A DNA stretch of 64,000 nucleotides from Candidatus Bathyarchaeota archaeon (GTDB lineage Archaea; Thermoproteota; CALKCG01; B24; DRYS01): contig JAGTQC010000002.1 in assembly GCA_018396535.1 (NCBI GenBank), forward strand, positions 1 to 64,000. Reading direction: 5' to 3'. A model generated the notes under the pieces. The model saw nothing but the letters and a program-made list of their open reading frames with translations. It searched no databases and was not told the DNA's origin. This document shows positions 53,750 to 60,928 of this stretch, in pieces. Every line of letters begins with the position of its first letter. The first letter of the stretch is position 1. The translations under genes were made by a program, and so were the position numbers.

Positions 53750-55180
53750 ATGCATACGCGGGTTATGAGAAAACGTAATAGTTTAGCGGTAAGCCTTGCA
53801 GTATTCCTCATCTGCACAGTAGTAGCTGTAGTAGTAGCAGGTATAGCAGGATACTATATAGGTCATGATGGGGGCTATCGCTCAGGATATAATGCCGGCT
53901 ATAACGAAGGATATGGCAAGGGTCGAGATGAAGGCTTGGTAGCTGGTGCGCAAGCAGCCTACCGTGAAGGCTATAATACAGGTTATAGCACAGGTTATCG
54001 TCACGGCTTCTCCAACGGTACACTTAATGTTGCTAAAGCATTGTATATGGGGCTTAAAGATAGGATATTAAGAGAGATCGTACAAGTATCTGCACCCAAC
54101 CTCCCATCAAAGATAAAGGTCGGGTGTCTAATGGCCTTAACAGGCGAATTAGGGCCTATGGGTGTCGAGATAGCTAAAGGTGCTCAGCTAGCCGTAGCTC
54201 TCGTAAATCGCCTTGGAGGTGTAGCTGGTAGACCTGTAGAGCTTATACTAGAAGATACCGGTACAGATCCTAGTAAAGCTTTAACAGCTTGTAAGAAACT
54301 AGTCGAGGTCGACGGTGTCAAGGTTATAGTAGGCCCTATGGCTAGTGGTGAAGTTATGGCTGTAGGAAGTTATGTTAACGAGAGAAAAGTCGTACTAGTA
54401 TCTCCATCAGCTACATCACCATACATAACTCTAAACTTCCCAGATGACTACGTATTCAGAGTCGTAGGCAGCGATACAGCTCAAGCTAAAGCTCTAGTTA
54501 AGCTAGCTCTGGATGCAGGTTGTAGGAAGATAGCGACTTTAGTTATGGATAACCCATATGGTGTAGGTATAGAGGATGTAGTTTCATCTCTTATAAAAGA
54601 TAAAATAGTACTCAAGGTGAGATACGACCCTAAGAAGATGGATTTCAGAACAGAGTTAACACAGATTAAAGGCGCAGGCGTAGATGGCGTTATATATGTA
54701 GGCTATTATGAAGATGGTCGTGTAATGTTTAGACAAGCCTTAGAGCTAGGTTTAGATAATATAAAGTGGTTTGCAGCAGAAGGTGTATACGGAGAACCAA
54801 TGCTAGTAGTTCCTGAATCCGCTGAATTCATGTATAGAGCCGTATTAGGTACTAGACCTCTACCTCCACTTATATCGTTCTATGATGAATTCTTAGAGGA
54901 ATACGAAGCAGTATTCGGAGCTAAACCAGCAGCCCCATACATAGAGTATTGCTTTGACGCTACACTTATGCTCTTAGAGGCTATAGCTAAAGCAGGGGTA
55001 TATGATGGAGCAGCTATAAAAGAGAAGCTGATGGAAATATCAAGCTCCTTCCTAGGTGCTTCAGGCTATAAAGCCTTTGACAGCGTAGGAGATCAGCTTA
55101 TGCAGATATATTCAACATGGAAAGTTGTCAAAGATGATGGTAAATATAAGATAATAGATGTAGGAGCCATAACACCATAG
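53750..55180 (+). CDS. livK: ABC importer substrate-binding protein (LivK type) with GX3 stalk
   Basis: The 476-residue lipoprotein-free binding protein has an N-terminal membrane anchor (about 12-38), a stalk of Gly-every-fourth residue (42-90), a helical linker, and a type-I periplasmic-binding fold from residue 122 (KVGCLMALTGELGPMG, LILEDTGTDPSKA, VKVIVGPMASGEV, VLVSPSATSPYI). The fold matches LivK/branched-chain amino-acid-type binding proteins. It heads the livK-H-M-G-F operon. Ligand class is inferred from the family; other ligands (amides, urea) are possible. Confidence 0.9.
   Translation: MHTRVMRKRNSLAVSLAVFLICTVVAVVVAGIAGYYIGHDGGYRSGYNAGYNEGYGKGRDEGLVAGAQAAYREGYNTGYSTGYRHGFSNGTLNVAKALYMGLKDRILREIVQVSAPNLPSKIKVGCLMALTGELGPMGVEIAKGAQLAVALVNRLGGVAGRPVELILEDTGTDPSKALTACKKLVEVDGVKVIVGPMASGEVMAVGSYVNERKVVLVSPSATSPYITLNFPDDYVFRVVGSDTAQAKALVKLALDAGCRKIATLVMDNPYGVGIEDVVSSLIKDKIVLKVRYDPKKMDFRTELTQIKGAGVDGVIYVGYYEDGRVMFRQALELGLDNIKWFAAEGVYGEPMLVVPESAEFMYRAVLGTRPLPPLISFYDEFLEEYEAVFGAKPAAPYIEYCFDATLMLLEAIAKAGVYDGAAIKEKLMEISSSFLGASGYKAFDSVGDQLMQIYSTWKVVKDDGKYKIIDVGAITP
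53873..54019 (+). repeat. GX3 (Gly every fourth residue) stalk in the binding protein
   Basis: Glycine occurs at residues 42, 46, 50, 54, 58, 62, 66, 74, 78, 82, 86 and 90, i.e. 12 of 13 consecutive period-4 positions (Ala at 70), mostly as GYxx. This is the pattern of the deca-GX3 motif of Yae1/Lto1 proteins. Confidence 0.85.
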
Positions 55181-55204
55181 ATCAGCTGGGGGATCAAAAT
55201 ATAA

Positions 55205-56104
55205 ATGTATACACTGAATCTCCCTCAAATATTTTTTAATTCTATAATAACTGGGAGCATATTTATGCTTGCAGCTATAGGCTTAAGCCTATCCTATAGC
55301 CTATCTCGTTTCCCGAATTTTGCTCATGCAGAATACATAACCTTAGGAGGGTACATCGGTTTTCTTCTATTTGAACAGTTGAATATGCACCTCTATATAG
55401 CGTTCACAGCTTCTTTCCTAGTATCTGGGCTTCTCTCTCTACTATCCTATACGGTTCTATTCAAGCCTCTCCAAGATAGGGGGGCCCCCATGGTTTATCT
55501 TATGGTTGCATCCATAGGTTTAGGTATAACCATTAGACACATAATTCAACAGATATGGGGTGGATCCCCTTTAACTATAAGAGCCGTATGGCCTAGATGG
55601 GATATAGGACCTCTAACGATCTCGGGTCTCTATCTATACCTAATAGCTACGGTTATCTCAACATCTATAGTACTACACTTACTACTAGCTAGCACTATTA
55701 TAGGTAAATGTATTAGAGCGGTATCTGATAATATAGAGCTAGCTTCCTCAGTAGGTGTGAATGTGGATAATGTATCTAGGTTTGTATGGTTTGTAGGAGG
55801 GGGGTTAGCAGGTTTATCAGGGTTTTTCATGGTAGCTATAGCTAACGCTATACCTCTCTTAGGTTGGAGACTGCTAATACCCGCATTCGCCGTAACGGTT
55901 TTGGGAGGAGTGGGCAGCTTCTATGGAGCTTTAATTGCAGCTTATACTCTCGGCTTTGCTGAGAATATAAGTGTAATAGGTTTAACCGCTCTAGGTCTAC
56001 CTACAGATCTGAAAATGCTCGTTTTCTTCATTACGATAGTCGTCGTATTATTAGCTAAACCTGAAGGTATAATCGCATCGATAAGGAGGGGTTTACGTGT
56101 CTGA
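55205..56104 (+). CDS. livH: ABC importer permease LivH
   Basis: The 299-residue permease has the LivH blocks LSYSLSRFPNFAHAEYITLGGYIG and AGLSGFFMVAIANAIPLLG (parts of about 29-50 and 205-225), with about eight helices. Pairs with LivM. It overlaps livM by 8 bases. Confidence 0.92.
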   Translation: MYTLNLPQIFFNSIITGSIFMLAAIGLSLSYSLSRFPNFAHAEYITLGGYIGFLLFEQLNMHLYIAFTASFLVSGLLSLLSYTVLFKPLQDRGAPMVYLMVASIGLGITIRHIIQQIWGGSPLTIRAVWPRWDIGPLTISGLYLYLIATVISTSIVLHLLLASTIIGKCIRAVSDNIELASSVGVNVDNVSRFVWFVGGGLAGLSGFFMVAIANAIPLLGWRLLIPAFAVTVLGGVGSFYGALIAAYTLGFAENISVIGLTALGLPTDLKMLVFFITIVVVLLAKPEGIIASIRRGLRV

Positions 56105-57080
56105 TCCAGCGATCTTCATAATGCACATAGCCTACAAGATCGGAGTTTATGGTATAGCAGCTTTAAGTCTCAATATAGAATATGGGTATACAGGTCTATC
56201 CAATTTTGGTAAAGCGGCATTCCTCATGATAGGCGCATACACAGCTGCGATAGCACTCGAGAATGGTCTACATCCCGTCATAGCTATAATCCTATCTGTA
56301 ATTATATCTGGTGTTATAGGTCTACTAGCATCTGCTTTTACATTAAAGTTTAGAGAGGATTATCTAGCTATAACACTACTAGCCTTTGCTGAGATCACTA
56401 GACTTATAATACGGAGCTTCGATGACTCCGCAAAAGCTTTAACCAGATTGATAACCGGTATGGAAAACTACGTTAACATATTCGGCGGGGTTCACGGTAA
56501 AGTAGTAAGAAGCTTCATAAGCATCATAGGCGATTACAGGCTATACAATGTAGCTCAGCTATGTCTAGCCTACGGATTTCTAATATTCTCCTACATATTC
56601 GTAAAACTACTGTTAGACTCACCTTATGGCCGTGTTCTCAGAGCTATCAGGGAGGATGAGCTTGCCTCTCAAACACTAGGTAAGGAGACATGGCGTTATA
56701 AACTACAAGTTATAATCCTAGGCTCCATGCTTGCAGGGTTAGCTGGTGCTTTAATCGCACAGTTTGAAGGATATATAAGTCCTGAAAGCTTCCAACCCCA
56801 TCTAACTTTCGCTATATGGATGATGGTTATACTCGGTGGTGTAGGGAATAACCTGGGAGTTATCCTAGGAGCCGCTCTTGTAGAATCTATAGAAGCAGCT
56901 GCTTTATTCATTAAAGGCTTCCTCGGCTATCTGCCATTAGATCCTATAAATATACAGTGGATATTTGTCGGTATATCTATCATAGTAATCGTAGCATTCA
57001 AACCTAAGGGTCTCGTAGAAGAACGCCCTATCAAAACACCCGCCATGGAGGTGGCTATAGCTGGCTCTACTAGAGATTAG
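56097..57080 (+). CDS. livM: ABC importer permease LivM
   Basis: The 327-residue permease: SLNIEYGYTGLSNFGKAAFLMIGAY at the start (split, residues about 21-45), the EAA-like loop GRVLRAIREDELASQTLGKE, GSMLAGLAGAL and FKPKGLVEERPI at the end. The last codons overlap the start of livG by 20 bases. Confidence 0.92.
   Translation: MSDPAIFIMHIAYKIGVYGIAALSLNIEYGYTGLSNFGKAAFLMIGAYTAAIALENGLHPVIAIILSVIISGVIGLLASAFTLKFREDYLAITLLAFAEITRLIIRSFDDSAKALTRLITGMENYVNIFGGVHGKVVRSFISIIGDYRLYNVAQLCLAYGFLIFSYIFVKLLLDSPYGRVLRAIREDELASQTLGKETWRYKLQVIILGSMLAGLAGALIAQFEGYISPESFQPHLTFAIWMMVILGGVGNNLGVILGAALVESIEAAALFIKGFLGYLPLDPINIQWIFVGISIIVIVAFKPKGLVEERPIKTPAMEVAIAGSTRD
57047..57053 (+). promoter_or_regulatory. 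Shine-Dalgarno site supporting a CTG start for livG
   Basis: GGAGGTG ends 7 bases before the CTG at 57061, an ideal distance. It is the strongest ribosome-binding site in this operon. Confidence 0.6.
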
Positions 57081-57831
57081 AAAATTATCGAAAAGTTTCG
57101 GTGGGCTAAAAGCCGTAAACTCAGTCGATCTAGATGTAGAGGAGGAAAGTATAACCGGGCTTATAGGTCCTAACGGCAGCGGGAAAACTACTTTATTCAA
57201 TATGATCTCTGGTGTTGTGCAGAGGGATAGCGGCGAGATATGGTTTATGAAGGAGCGTATAGATGGTCTCCAGCCGTTCAAGATCTATGCGAAGGGTATA
57301 GTTAGAAGCTTCCAAATACCAAGACTATTTTGGAGGCTTACCGTCTTAGACAACATGTTGATAGCAGCTAGAGAATTTATAGGTGAAAGCTTTACAGGAA
57401 CATTATTCAGAAGGGGTAAATGGGTATCAGAAGAGAGGAAGCTTGTAGATAAAGCTCTAGATATACTTAGGTTACTAGGATTGTCTGAGTCGGCTTTCAG
57501 ATTTGCATATCAGCTTTCAGGAGGACAGATGAAGCTTCTAGAGATAGGTAGAGCTCTAATGGCTGATCCCAAGCTTCTTCTTTTAGATGAGCCTACAGCT
57601 GGTGTTCATCCCAAACTTGCACAGGATATATTCAGGAAGATAGAAGAGATACGGAGAATATACGGTACAGCAGTCTTCGTTATAGAGCATAGAGTTGAAA
57701 CATTATTCTCTTATGCAGATTGGGTATACGTTATGGATAATGGTAGCCTCATATATAGTGGTAAACCTAGCGGCGTAGTTCTAGATGCCAGGGTTCAGAA
57801 AGCGTATCTAGGTGATATATATGTTGCTTAG
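57061..57831 (+). CDS. livG: ABC importer ATPase LivG, apparent CTG start
   Basis: The 256-residue ATPase: LEIRKLSKSFGGLKAV at the N-terminus, Walker A GPNGSGKTT (36-44), signature LSGGQMKLLEIGRA and Walker B LLLLDEPTAG. The frame is open from a TAG at 57058-57060 and contains no ATG, GTG or TTG before Walker A. The first usable codons are CTG 57061 (preceded by a perfect ribosome-binding site) or ATT. Starting at the first internal ATG (57202) would remove Walker A and cannot be right. Overlaps livM and livF. Confidence 0.85.
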   Translation: MALLEIRKLSKSFGGLKAVNSVDLDVEEESITGLIGPNGSGKTTLFNMISGVVQRDSGEIWFMKERIDGLQPFKIYAKGIVRSFQIPRLFWRLTVLDNMLIAAREFIGESFTGTLFRRGKWVSEERKLVDKALDILRLLGLSESAFRFAYQLSGGQMKLLEIGRALMADPKLLLLDEPTAGVHPKLAQDIFRKIEEIRRIYGTAVFVIEHRVETLFSYADWVYVMDNGSLIYSGKPSGVVLDARVQKAYLGDIYVA

Positions 57832-58552
57832 AACAGTTGATCTAAGCGTAGGCTACGGAGATCTAAAAATCGTACAAAACGTATCGGTAGAAGTTAAAGG
57901 TGGGGAGGTTGTAAGCCTGATAGGCCCTAACGGTAGCGGTAAATCAACCTTGATAAAGGGTATAGTAGGTCTAGCTAAGGTATTCAGCGGCAGGGTCCTC
58001 CTTGATGAATTGGATGTAACAGGTTTACCAACGTATAAGCTTATCAGGATGGGTATAGGCTATGTACCCCAGAGACTCAATATATTCCCTAACCTATCGG
58101 TTAAGGAGAATCTTGAAGTTAGTGGAAGCTGGCTTGATAAGAATAGGATGAGGAGGAAAATCCAAGAAGTGATGGATATATTCCCGGAGATTAAACATAA
58201 AATGGACTGTAAAGCTGGACTTTTAAGCGGAGGAGAAAGGCAGATACTAGCTTTGGCTAGAGCTTTAGTAGCAGAGCCTAGGGTACTCTTACTCGATGAG
58301 CCTACAGCCAGTCTTAGCCCTATGATGGCTGATAAGATCTTCAGATATATAAGGGACATAGCATTCACTAATGATATTGCAATCATGATCGCAGAGCAAA
58401 ACGTAGCTAAAGCTTTGAAAAACTCTGACAGGAGTTACGTGTTAGTTTCAGGTAGATGCGTATCTGTAGAATCATCTAAAGCTCATCTATCAGACGATCA
58501 GCTTAAAAGGATATACCTTGAATTTATGAGCATTAAACCCGATAGCTTATGA
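57821..58552 (+). CDS. livF: ABC importer ATPase LivF
   Basis: The 243-residue ATPase: LLRTVDLSVGYGDLKIV, Walker A GPNGSGKST, LSGGERQILALARAL, Walker B LLLDEPTASLSP. Start ATG 57821 in the last codons of livG; an upstream GTG (57812) is in frame but less likely. Last gene of the operon. Confidence 0.93.
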   Translation: MLLRTVDLSVGYGDLKIVQNVSVEVKGGEVVSLIGPNGSGKSTLIKGIVGLAKVFSGRVLLDELDVTGLPTYKLIRMGIGYVPQRLNIFPNLSVKENLEVSGSWLDKNRMRRKIQEVMDIFPEIKHKMDCKAGLLSGGERQILALARALVAEPRVLLLDEPTASLSPMMADKIFRYIRDIAFTNDIAIMIAEQNVAKALKNSDRSYVLVSGRCVSVESSKAHLSDDQLKRIYLEFMSIKPDSL

Positions 58553-58609: not shown

Positions 58610-60928
58610 ATGCAGATAACCTTCTACCCTATAGATATCGATTACAGAGAATCTCCATCATTATCAGTTAGGCTTTGGGGTATAGATAGGGATGGAAAAC
58701 GTATAATGGCTTTTGACGATAGATTTAAACAATATTTCTTCGTCATACCTAAAGAGGGGTGTTCGACTAAGCTTTTTGAAGAATTAAACCTCCTAGGCGT
58801 ATCAGTTGATGAAATAGAAAAAAGATTCTTCGGCAAACCTATCAGGGTATTAAAGGTTGAATCCAGTAATGTCAAGCTTATCAACGAAGCCTTAGCTAAA
58901 ATATCTAGGAGCCGATATGTCGATAAGGTTCTCGAAGACGACCTTAGAGCTTCTACACATTATCTGCTGGAAAAGCAAATTAAACCATGTAATTGGGTTG
59001 AAGTGAGTGCAGAGTACGGGGGTATAGAAGGGGTTAGAGTTGATAAAATATACCGTATCATAGGTGATTTTAGAACGATCGATACAGCTATACCTCGACT
59101 CCGTATATTAGCATTCCATGTATACCCGTTATCGCGCTTCGGATCACCGAATCCAGATATCGATCCTATAGCCGTTATAACGGTAGGGACATCCGATGGA
59201 CATATAGAGCAGTATACGATAGATGATGGAGAGAAAACCATACTTTTGAAATTTATAGATTTCATAGATGAGTATGACCCAGATATAATCGTAGGGTTTG
59301 AATCGAACAGAGTATACTGGCCTTTCATAAATAGGAGAGCTTCCATCAACAATATTAAACTATCTATAGGTAGGGACGGGGGCTCTCCGCATACAAGCGT
59401 GTATGGTCATATATCGATACCTGGTCGTGTAAACCTAGACTTATACGATTTCGTGGAAGATTTGTATGAGGTTAAATCCAAAGATATAGAAGGCTTAGCC
59501 GACTATCTAGGATTGAAGTTTCCACGTAAACTTGTACCTAGCTTTAAGGTTTCGGAACTATGGAGTAGAGGATCGGATGGAAGGATAGATGTTAAGGAAT
59601 CTAGTAGATCGATCGTAGAAGCCATGCTAAAGCTATCTGAGGATATAGTCCCACTTGCACTTCAACTATCCTCGGTAGTGGGTCTACCACCTGACCATGT
59701 ATTCACCGCTGCTGTAGGTTTTAGAGTTGAGTCACATCTGATGTTCGAAGCAGCTAGTAGAGGCGAACTGATACCTAAACGTAGCGAGGTAGAATACGAA
59801 AGGTATGCTGGAGCTATAGTTCTAGAACCTACACCAGGTATACATGAGGATATACTCGTATTAGACTTCAAGTCTCTATACCCATCCCTCATAATAAAGT
59901 ACAATATATCACCGGATACTTATATCGAAGAGGGTGTAGCCTCTGATATAGATTTCTATGAAGCACCCGAGGTTAAGCATAGATTTAGAAAGGAGCCTAA
60001 AGGAATGTATGCAGAAGCATTATCTAAACTCCTTAAGGCTAGGGATGAGGTTAGAGTTAAACTTAAGGAAGTTGAGCCCAACAGTCACTTATACAAACTC
60101 CTCGATGCCAGACAGAAAGCTATAAAGATAGTATCTAACGCTACTTATGGTTATGCTGGCTGGATCGGTGCGCGATGGTATATGAAGCCTGTAGCAGAAT
60201 CTGTAGCAGCCTGGGGTAGAGCTACACTTAAATCAGTACTAGATTATGCATCTAAAATAAGCCTTAAAGTAGTTTATGGAGATACAGATTCCATATTTGT
60301 AGAATATGATGAGGAAAAAATAATGAAGCTTACAGAATTCGTAGAGAAGGAGCTTGGCTTAGAGATAAAACCAGATGTACACTATAAACGTGTATTATTT
60401 ACTGAAGCTAAGAAGCGTTACGTAGGTCTAACATTAGATGGACGTATAGATTTCGTGGGATTCGAAGCTGTAAGAGGGGACTGGAGTATGCTGGCTAAGA
60501 TAGTCCAAGAGGCTGTAGCAGACTCTATATTGAGGGAGGGGTCCGTAGCTAAAGCCATCTCCATATCTAGGGACTATATATCCATGGCTCGTAAAGGTTT
60601 ACTACCCTTAGAATACTTCATAGTATGGAAGACTATATCTAAGCCGCTAGAGGAGTATAAGGTTAGAACACCTCATACAGAAACTGCTAGAAAGCTTGTA
60701 GCTAAAGGTTTCAAGGTAAACCCCGGCGACCGTATAGGCTTTGTTATCGTCAAGAGAGCGGCGCAGAAACTATATGATAAAGTGGAGCCATACCTATACG
60801 CTAAACTGGAAGATATAGATATAGAATACTATATAGATAACCAGGTAATACCCGCTGCTCTAAGGATATTAGAAGTCTTAGGTGTAAGAAAGGAGCAACT
60901 TCTAGGTAGACAGGTAACCCTCTTTTAG
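58610..60928 (+). CDS. Family-B DNA polymerase with degenerate 3'-5' exonuclease motifs
   Basis: The 772-residue polymerase has intact polymerase motifs: motif A VLDFKSLYPS (Asp419), motif B KIVSNATYGYAG (506-517) and motif C YGDTDS (556-561). The exonuclease domain (about 130-340) keeps the fold but lost its carboxylates: ExoI FDIE is FHVY (His170, Tyr172), ExoII lacks Asn and Asp (GFESNRVYWPF; Tyr236), ExoIII SYxxD is SKDIE (Lys291, Glu294). Expected: synthesis without proofreading. Length and N-terminal domain are otherwise those of archaeal PolB. It may be a translesion or repair polymerase, with another replicative enzyme elsewhere. Confidence 0.9.
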   Translation: MQITFYPIDIDYRESPSLSVRLWGIDRDGKRIMAFDDRFKQYFFVIPKEGCSTKLFEELNLLGVSVDEIEKRFFGKPIRVLKVESSNVKLINEALAKISRSRYVDKVLEDDLRASTHYLLEKQIKPCNWVEVSAEYGGIEGVRVDKIYRIIGDFRTIDTAIPRLRILAFHVYPLSRFGSPNPDIDPIAVITVGTSDGHIEQYTIDDGEKTILLKFIDFIDEYDPDIIVGFESNRVYWPFINRRASINNIKLSIGRDGGSPHTSVYGHISIPGRVNLDLYDFVEDLYEVKSKDIEGLADYLGLKFPRKLVPSFKVSELWSRGSDGRIDVKESSRSIVEAMLKLSEDIVPLALQLSSVVGLPPDHVFTAAVGFRVESHLMFEAASRGELIPKRSEVEYERYAGAIVLEPTPGIHEDILVLDFKSLYPSLIIKYNISPDTYIEEGVASDIDFYEAPEVKHRFRKEPKGMYAEALSKLLKARDEVRVKLKEVEPNSHLYKLLDARQKAIKIVSNATYGYAGWIGARWYMKPVAESVAAWGRATLKSVLDYASKISLKVVYGDTDSIFVEYDEEKIMKLTEFVEKELGLEIKPDVHYKRVLFTEAKKRYVGLTLDGRIDFVGFEAVRGDWSMLAKIVQEAVADSILREGSVAKAISISRDYISMARKGLLPLEYFIVWKTISKPLEEYKVRTPHTETARKLVAKGFKVNPGDRIGFVIVKRAAQKLYDKVEPYLYAKLEDIDIEYYIDNQVIPAALRILEVLGVRKEQLLGRQVTLF

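Follow-up and report, generated by a model that had tools for sequence, protein, structure and literature searches.

A clade-wide PolB3 DNA polymerase of Bathyarchaeia without an exonuclease site and with a degenerate uracil pocket: a possible accessory polymerase beside PolD and PolB1

In a stretch of 64,000 nucleotides of Candidatus Bathyarchaeota DNA, referred to here as the window, we identified a PolB3-type family-B DNA polymerase gene (58610-60928, forward strand) whose product has lost its exonuclease site as well as most of its uracil read-ahead pocket. We favor, at a probability of roughly 0.55, the reading that this PolB3 has been relieved by PolD and PolB1 and may now serve as a clamp-binding, non-proofreading, and uracil-tolerant accessory polymerase.

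The open reading frame list gives a protein of 772 amino acids plus a stop codon, in agreement with the coordinates, frame, and length assigned in the first-pass annotation. The protein contains the Pfam domains DNA_pol_B_exo1 (PF03104) and DNA_pol_B (PF00136). Its top solved relative is the PolB3 of Pyrobaculum calidifontis (5mdn; phmmer E 2.4e-183, 614.6 bits), followed by Thermococcales PolB with 343.8 bits. An AlphaFold2 model built from 41 sequences (mean pLDDT 89.8) likewise had 5mdn as its best fold match (Foldseek E 1.1e-69, 41% identity in the alignment). The model and 5mdn match over the whole chain (VIA-align Z 38.5, 742 residues, rmsd 3.6), which indicates that the exonuclease fold is kept and that only its site is gone. 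In a quick polymerase-domain tree computed without PolB2, 87 PolB3 rows, among them the window protein, were separated from 4 PolB1 rows with an SH-aLRT support of 100. The nearest named relative is a congener, Candidatus Bathyarchaeota archaeon SKYB62 (L033), with 77% identity. The comparison with PolB2 that had been drawn initially was misplaced, given the best match to 5mdn in both sequence and fold and the presence of both Asp residues in motif C; together with the gene neighbors described below, these features rule out a PolB2 identity. On the basis of sequence, we assign the window gene as the PolB3 orthologue of Bathyarchaeia.

Alignment with 5mdn and about 120 PolB3 rows revealed that all six exonuclease-motif residues are replaced in the window protein. 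At the ExoI site (59117-59125, forward strand), H170 and Y172 stand in place of the Asp and Glu of intact PolB3, and at the ExoII site (59300-59317, forward strand) the positions of Asn and Asp are taken by E231 and Y236; both losses had been recognized in the first-pass annotation. The same annotation had rightly called the ExoIII motif lost but had located it at K291/E294 (59480-59491), a placement that is excluded by the alignment and the model, in which residues 291-294 lie where a short helix (293-299) begins. The true ExoIII site is S331/I335 (59600-59614, forward strand) in helix 322-357 of the model, where the Tyr and Asp of the reference stretch in 5mdn, RYVLDDVRS, are aligned. All four catalytic acids are thus missing from their aligned positions, with E231 occupying the site of the ExoII Asn. 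The PolB3 alignment placed no intact Asp or Glu at any catalytic carboxylate position, nor was a replacement acid evident in it, and the site ranks among the most degenerate of the rows compared. These observations make it highly improbable that exonuclease activity persists through a rearranged site, even if the ExoII Asp, as the only one of these acids, is retained in most relatives, and even if motifs do not fully predict exonuclease strength in PolB3, as illustrated by the Aeropyrum enzyme with its conserved motifs and weak activity (PMC5911459).

The initial view that only proofreading had been lost turned out to be too narrow, as a conserved-column comparison revealed a degenerate uracil read-ahead pocket as well. 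We used the pocket definition of PMC11676844, comprising the seven positions Y7, P36, Y37, P90, V93, R97, and R119 of Pfu. The corresponding residues of the window protein, which are located at positions 12, 41, 42, 88, 91, 95, and 117 in a span of its N-terminal domain (58643-58960, forward strand), read Y Q Y V I L H compared to Y P Y P V R R in the intact set. Two of the seven residues are therefore kept, with the alignment near 86-97 being less certain than at 41 and 117. The engineered changes P36H and V93Q are known to abolish or weaken uracil binding (PMC11676844), and guarding against deaminated bases has been put forward as the main role of archaeal PolB (PMC5045986). Across the alignment, all seven pocket residues are kept in 54 of the 57 rows with three or four catalytic acids and in none of the 70 rows without a functional set of acids (exo-dead rows, a number that includes duplicates and two partial rows). 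The three exceptions, in which a degenerate pocket is combined with intact or nearly intact acids, are all from Asgard archaea (L133, L134, and L136). One of them, L133, is sister to the exo-dead Asgard proteins L130 and L131 in the polymerase-domain tree; this single case hints that the pocket may be lost before the exonuclease site.

The loss had been presented as a trait of one protein, which is incomplete, since the PolB3 alignment identifies it as a trait of a whole clade. Among the PolB3 examined, all complete proteins of Bathyarchaeota, Hecatellales, and Methanodesulfokora have lost the exonuclease site, while those of Thermoprotei, Desulfurococcales, Thermofilum, Pyrodictium, and Baldrarchaeota all have it intact. 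The 80 named loci comprise 46 with an exo-dead and 34 with an intact PolB3. The number of catalytic acids kept is distributed bimodally, with four acids in 55 rows, three in 2, two in 3, one in 55 (including the fragments L122 and L135), and none in 13; six pairs of rows as well as L014/L123 represent the same gene entered twice. The acid that persists in most exo-dead relatives is the ExoII Asp. A separate exonuclease loss was observed in the Asgard proteins L130 and L131 (ExoI K/D, ExoII Asn changed to Tyr, ExoIII Tyr lost), which have lost the pocket as well and whose genomes carry PolD. In a tree based on polymerase-domain columns, the exonuclease state requires three changes. A single clade of exo-dead PolB3 from the TACK lineages was not rejected (p-AU 0.82), even though these proteins form a grade in the quick tree; the direction and the number of losses can therefore be read in more than one way. 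With only about three evolutionary events, the correlations between exonuclease loss, pocket loss, and PolD are descriptive and do not represent independent evidence, and an independent-pairs comparison for correlated evolution comprised just 2-3 pairs and had no power; Fisher values were set aside because they count related rows as if these were independent. We also considered H261, present in 65/65 exo-dead proteins, as a new hallmark of this state; the residue was dismissed because it occurs in the exo-intact Baldrarchaeum and other Asgard proteins, and it is therefore probably ancestral.

According to a survey of archaeal family-B polymerases, dnaG is a conserved neighbor of PolB3 in crenarchaea (PMC4104785). 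We recognized the dnaG family by its Toprim domain and sequence and located it within 5 kb of the polymerase gene at 32 of the 46 exo-dead loci and at 23 of the 34 intact ones. Its presence at many exo-dead loci supports the PolB3 orthology. At the window locus, dnaG was not found; the polymerase gene is followed by a gene for an M24 peptidase and directly preceded by an operon (53750-58552) of branched-chain amino acid ABC transporter genes, which encode a substrate-binding protein, two permeases, and two ATPases. The flanking genes at this locus include neither a RadA paralogue nor an arCOG07300 gene. A repair operon around the polymerase was discarded as an option, as the locus has no DNA-repair neighbors.

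The polymerase site shows no comparable change. Motif A (VLDFKSLYP, 59858-59884), motif B (RQKAIKIVSNATYGYAGW = RQKAIKIVSNATYGYAGWIG, 60110-60169), and motif C (VYGDTDSIF, 60272-60298, with both catalytic Asp kept), all on the forward strand, are intact in the motif comparison and deserve their earlier description as perfect. The protein ends in RQVTLF (60908-60925, forward strand), a short putative PCNA-binding (PIP-like) motif. This assignment is based on our own loose regular expression, which also matched the C-termini of 56/65 exo-dead and 50/53 exo-intact PolB3. Compared to the 77%-identical congener, dN/dS is 0.134 overall, 0.152 for the exonuclease domain, and 0.105 for the polymerase domain, which indicates a working protein under purifying selection.

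These data bear on the possibility of neutral decay, according to which the sharing of replication between PolD and PolB1 made PolB3 redundant, so that site and pocket are eroding and the gene is heading to loss. In line with this idea, several families with PolD and PolB1 (f6, f7, and f11) yielded no match of PolB3 strength, and the ratio of exonuclease-domain to polymerase-domain divergence is somewhat higher for exo-dead PolB3 than for intact PolB3 (1.34 vs. 1.13). However, the complete exo-dead proteins retain the polymerase motifs, the frames are of full length throughout, and the exo-dead state is old and common to whole classes. The open frame, the dN/dS of 0.13, and a loss shared by the clade argue that the exonuclease site was not lost by chance or decay, and we regard neutral decay as improbable.

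To place the polymerase in its genomic context, we counted the PolB and PolD genes. The window's genome harbors exactly two PolB genes, the PolB3 described here and a PolB1 (L002) with intact ExoI-III motifs and most pocket positions kept. It also carries DP2, the large subunit of PolD, in full. The small subunit DP1 was not found in this MAG (G000, 93% complete), probably due to an assembly gap; the congener G001 does encode DP1, and the nuclease motifs of that protein are kept when read by eye. DP2 accompanies exo-dead PolB3 in 62 cases and is missing in 3, while exo-intact PolB3 occurs in 4 cases with and 27 cases without it. The three exo-dead cases without DP2 come from G016 (two rows, one gene) and the MAG of L096, and the four exo-intact cases with it are Asgards. 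G016 (L014, L123), which is 98% complete, encodes an exo-dead PolB3 and a PolB1, and neither DP2 nor DP1 was found in it, making it the one clear PolD exception. For five genomes, the PolD state was known first and the exonuclease state was then as expected, namely exo-dead in the PolD-bearing G027 and G048 and intact in G031, G038, and G043, where PolD is absent. The presence of PolD as a sufficient cause is excluded, as Asgards with PolD can keep the exonuclease site. PolB1 is high-scoring in most exo-dead genomes and absent from a few incomplete ones and from the genome of L102. In three PolD-bearing relatives, PolB1 was matched in two pieces inside one long frame of 968-1191 aa (G053:C1:351167-354691, G026:C4:44021-47113, and G054:C17:3544-6249), which may reflect inteins or insertions. 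A Y-family polymerase was not matched in the window's genome or in the order mates tested. A link of exonuclease loss to the absence of Y-family polymerases was rejected, because many exo-intact genomes lack them and some exo-dead genomes have them.

In the model we propose, PolD and PolB1 would carry replication and proofreading. PolB3 would thereby be freed from its role as replicase and template guardian and be kept as an accessory polymerase, which PCNA might recruit via the C-terminal PIP-like tail. It could then elongate primers whose ends are mismatched or contain a lesion, and close gaps where the template carries uracil or damage, a role to which the losses would be suited, as proofreading and uracil stalling would only hinder there. 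In its mode of action, the enzyme would be a single-subunit archaeal equivalent of an exo-dead family-B extender such as Pol zeta or Dpo2, while being a member of neither family. Several points count against this accessory role, namely the missing repair neighbors, the unchanged fingers, the mismatch with Y-family occurrence, the small number of changes behind the correlations, the genome G016, the DP1 missing from the window's own MAG, and the Asgards that combine PolD with an intact exonuclease site. The first-pass annotation had predicted an error-prone or translesion enzyme from the exonuclease loss. This is plausible and yet no automatic consequence: Dpo2 of Sulfolobus is without exonuclease and nevertheless accurate on undamaged DNA, in addition to being an active extender (PMC8764526), and removal of the exonuclease lowers the fidelity of Tgo-Pol by about 4-fold only (PMC4150786). 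Exo-dead Tgo-Pol with an altered fingers loop does perform translesion synthesis (PMC4150786). We found no longer fingers region in exo-dead PolB3, its length being 36 in 65/65 exo-dead and 51/53 exo-intact proteins; the lesion-bypass route known from Tgo-Pol is therefore not visible here, and an extended loop was rejected as the basis of lesion bypass.

The main rival to an accessory polymerase is a function in lagging-strand synthesis and Okazaki maturation, in which free strand displacement by the exo-dead PolB3 would complement the poorly displacing PolD, with lesion bypass as a side effect. Such a role would fit the presence of PolD in exo-dead genomes and the frequent proximity of dnaG, and in Thermococcus kodakarensis PolB indeed displaces strands and matures Okazaki fragments better than PolD (PMC13136892). 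The Thermococcus enzyme, however, is of the kind that bears an exonuclease and senses uracil, so that neither loss is required for a lagging-strand role. Furthermore, PolB1 is also present, and the loss of the uracil pocket agrees better with tolerance of damaged templates. We thus consider the lagging-strand role unlikely, although it deserves more weight than neutral decay. Extending the accessory reading beyond the window is a more tentative step, which we would rate somewhat short of even odds: in Bathyarchaeia, Hecatellales, and Korarchaeia-like lineages, and separately in some Asgards, PolB3 might have turned from a proofreading, uracil-stalling replicase and guardian into a dedicated non-proofreading damage-tolerance polymerase. 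This transition would have been enabled by PolD and PolB1 and would parallel the split between Pol delta and Pol zeta in eukaryotes.

The usual description of PolB3 is that of an archaeal family-B polymerase that proofreads and senses uracil, and the Bathyarchaeota group is among the most abundant archaea in sediments. If the double loss holds class-wide, abundant sediment archaea use PolB3 quite differently. In that case, the long-debated division of labor between PolB and PolD would become testable by comparing lineages with PolD and PolB1 to those without PolD. Exo-dead PolB3 would moreover represent natural exo-minus and probably uracil-tolerant polymerases, traits that are otherwise engineered into PCR enzymes. 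We found no paper describing a class-wide exonuclease loss in PolB3; supplements and subscription papers were outside the search, and the status as not described is thus provisional. The accessible portions of the two main archaeal family-B surveys mention a lost exonuclease in PolB2 but none in PolB3 (PMC4104785, PMC7544198).

Among known systems, crenarchaeal PolB3 (5mdn; Sulfolobus Dpo3) belongs to the same subfamily and shares the fold over the whole length, the polymerase motifs, and the PIP-like tail with the window protein, as well as the dnaG neighborhood with many exo-dead relatives. It differs in that the PolB3 of Thermoprotei keep all exonuclease and pocket residues, whereas the six exonuclease and most pocket residues are replaced in the window protein. 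The Thermococcales PolB (Pfu, Tgo, KOD) are also part of the PolB3 group and are also found together with PolD; they proofread and stall at template uracil as template guardians (PMC5045986), in contrast to the window protein, which is without both residue sets. PolB1 is missing in Euryarchaeota (PMC4104785) and hence in Thermococcales. PolB2/Dpo2 resembles the window protein in that the exonuclease was lost and the protein kept, with Dpo2 being an active extender (PMC8764526). PolB2 has altered polymerase motifs with one Asp in motif C (PMC7544198) and is surrounded by RadA-like and arCOG07300 genes (PMC4104785); unlike in PolB2, motif C of the window protein has both Asp residues, and no such neighbors were seen. 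Rev3 of Pol zeta and Pol alpha are family-B enzymes that kept the polymerase site and have an inactivated exonuclease (PMC7544198). The window protein represents a lineage separate from both; partner subunits were not identified, the fingers loop is not extended, and its 772-residue chain includes nothing that corresponds to their C-terminal metal-binding modules. By analogy, its proposed mode of working would nevertheless resemble extension by Pol zeta.
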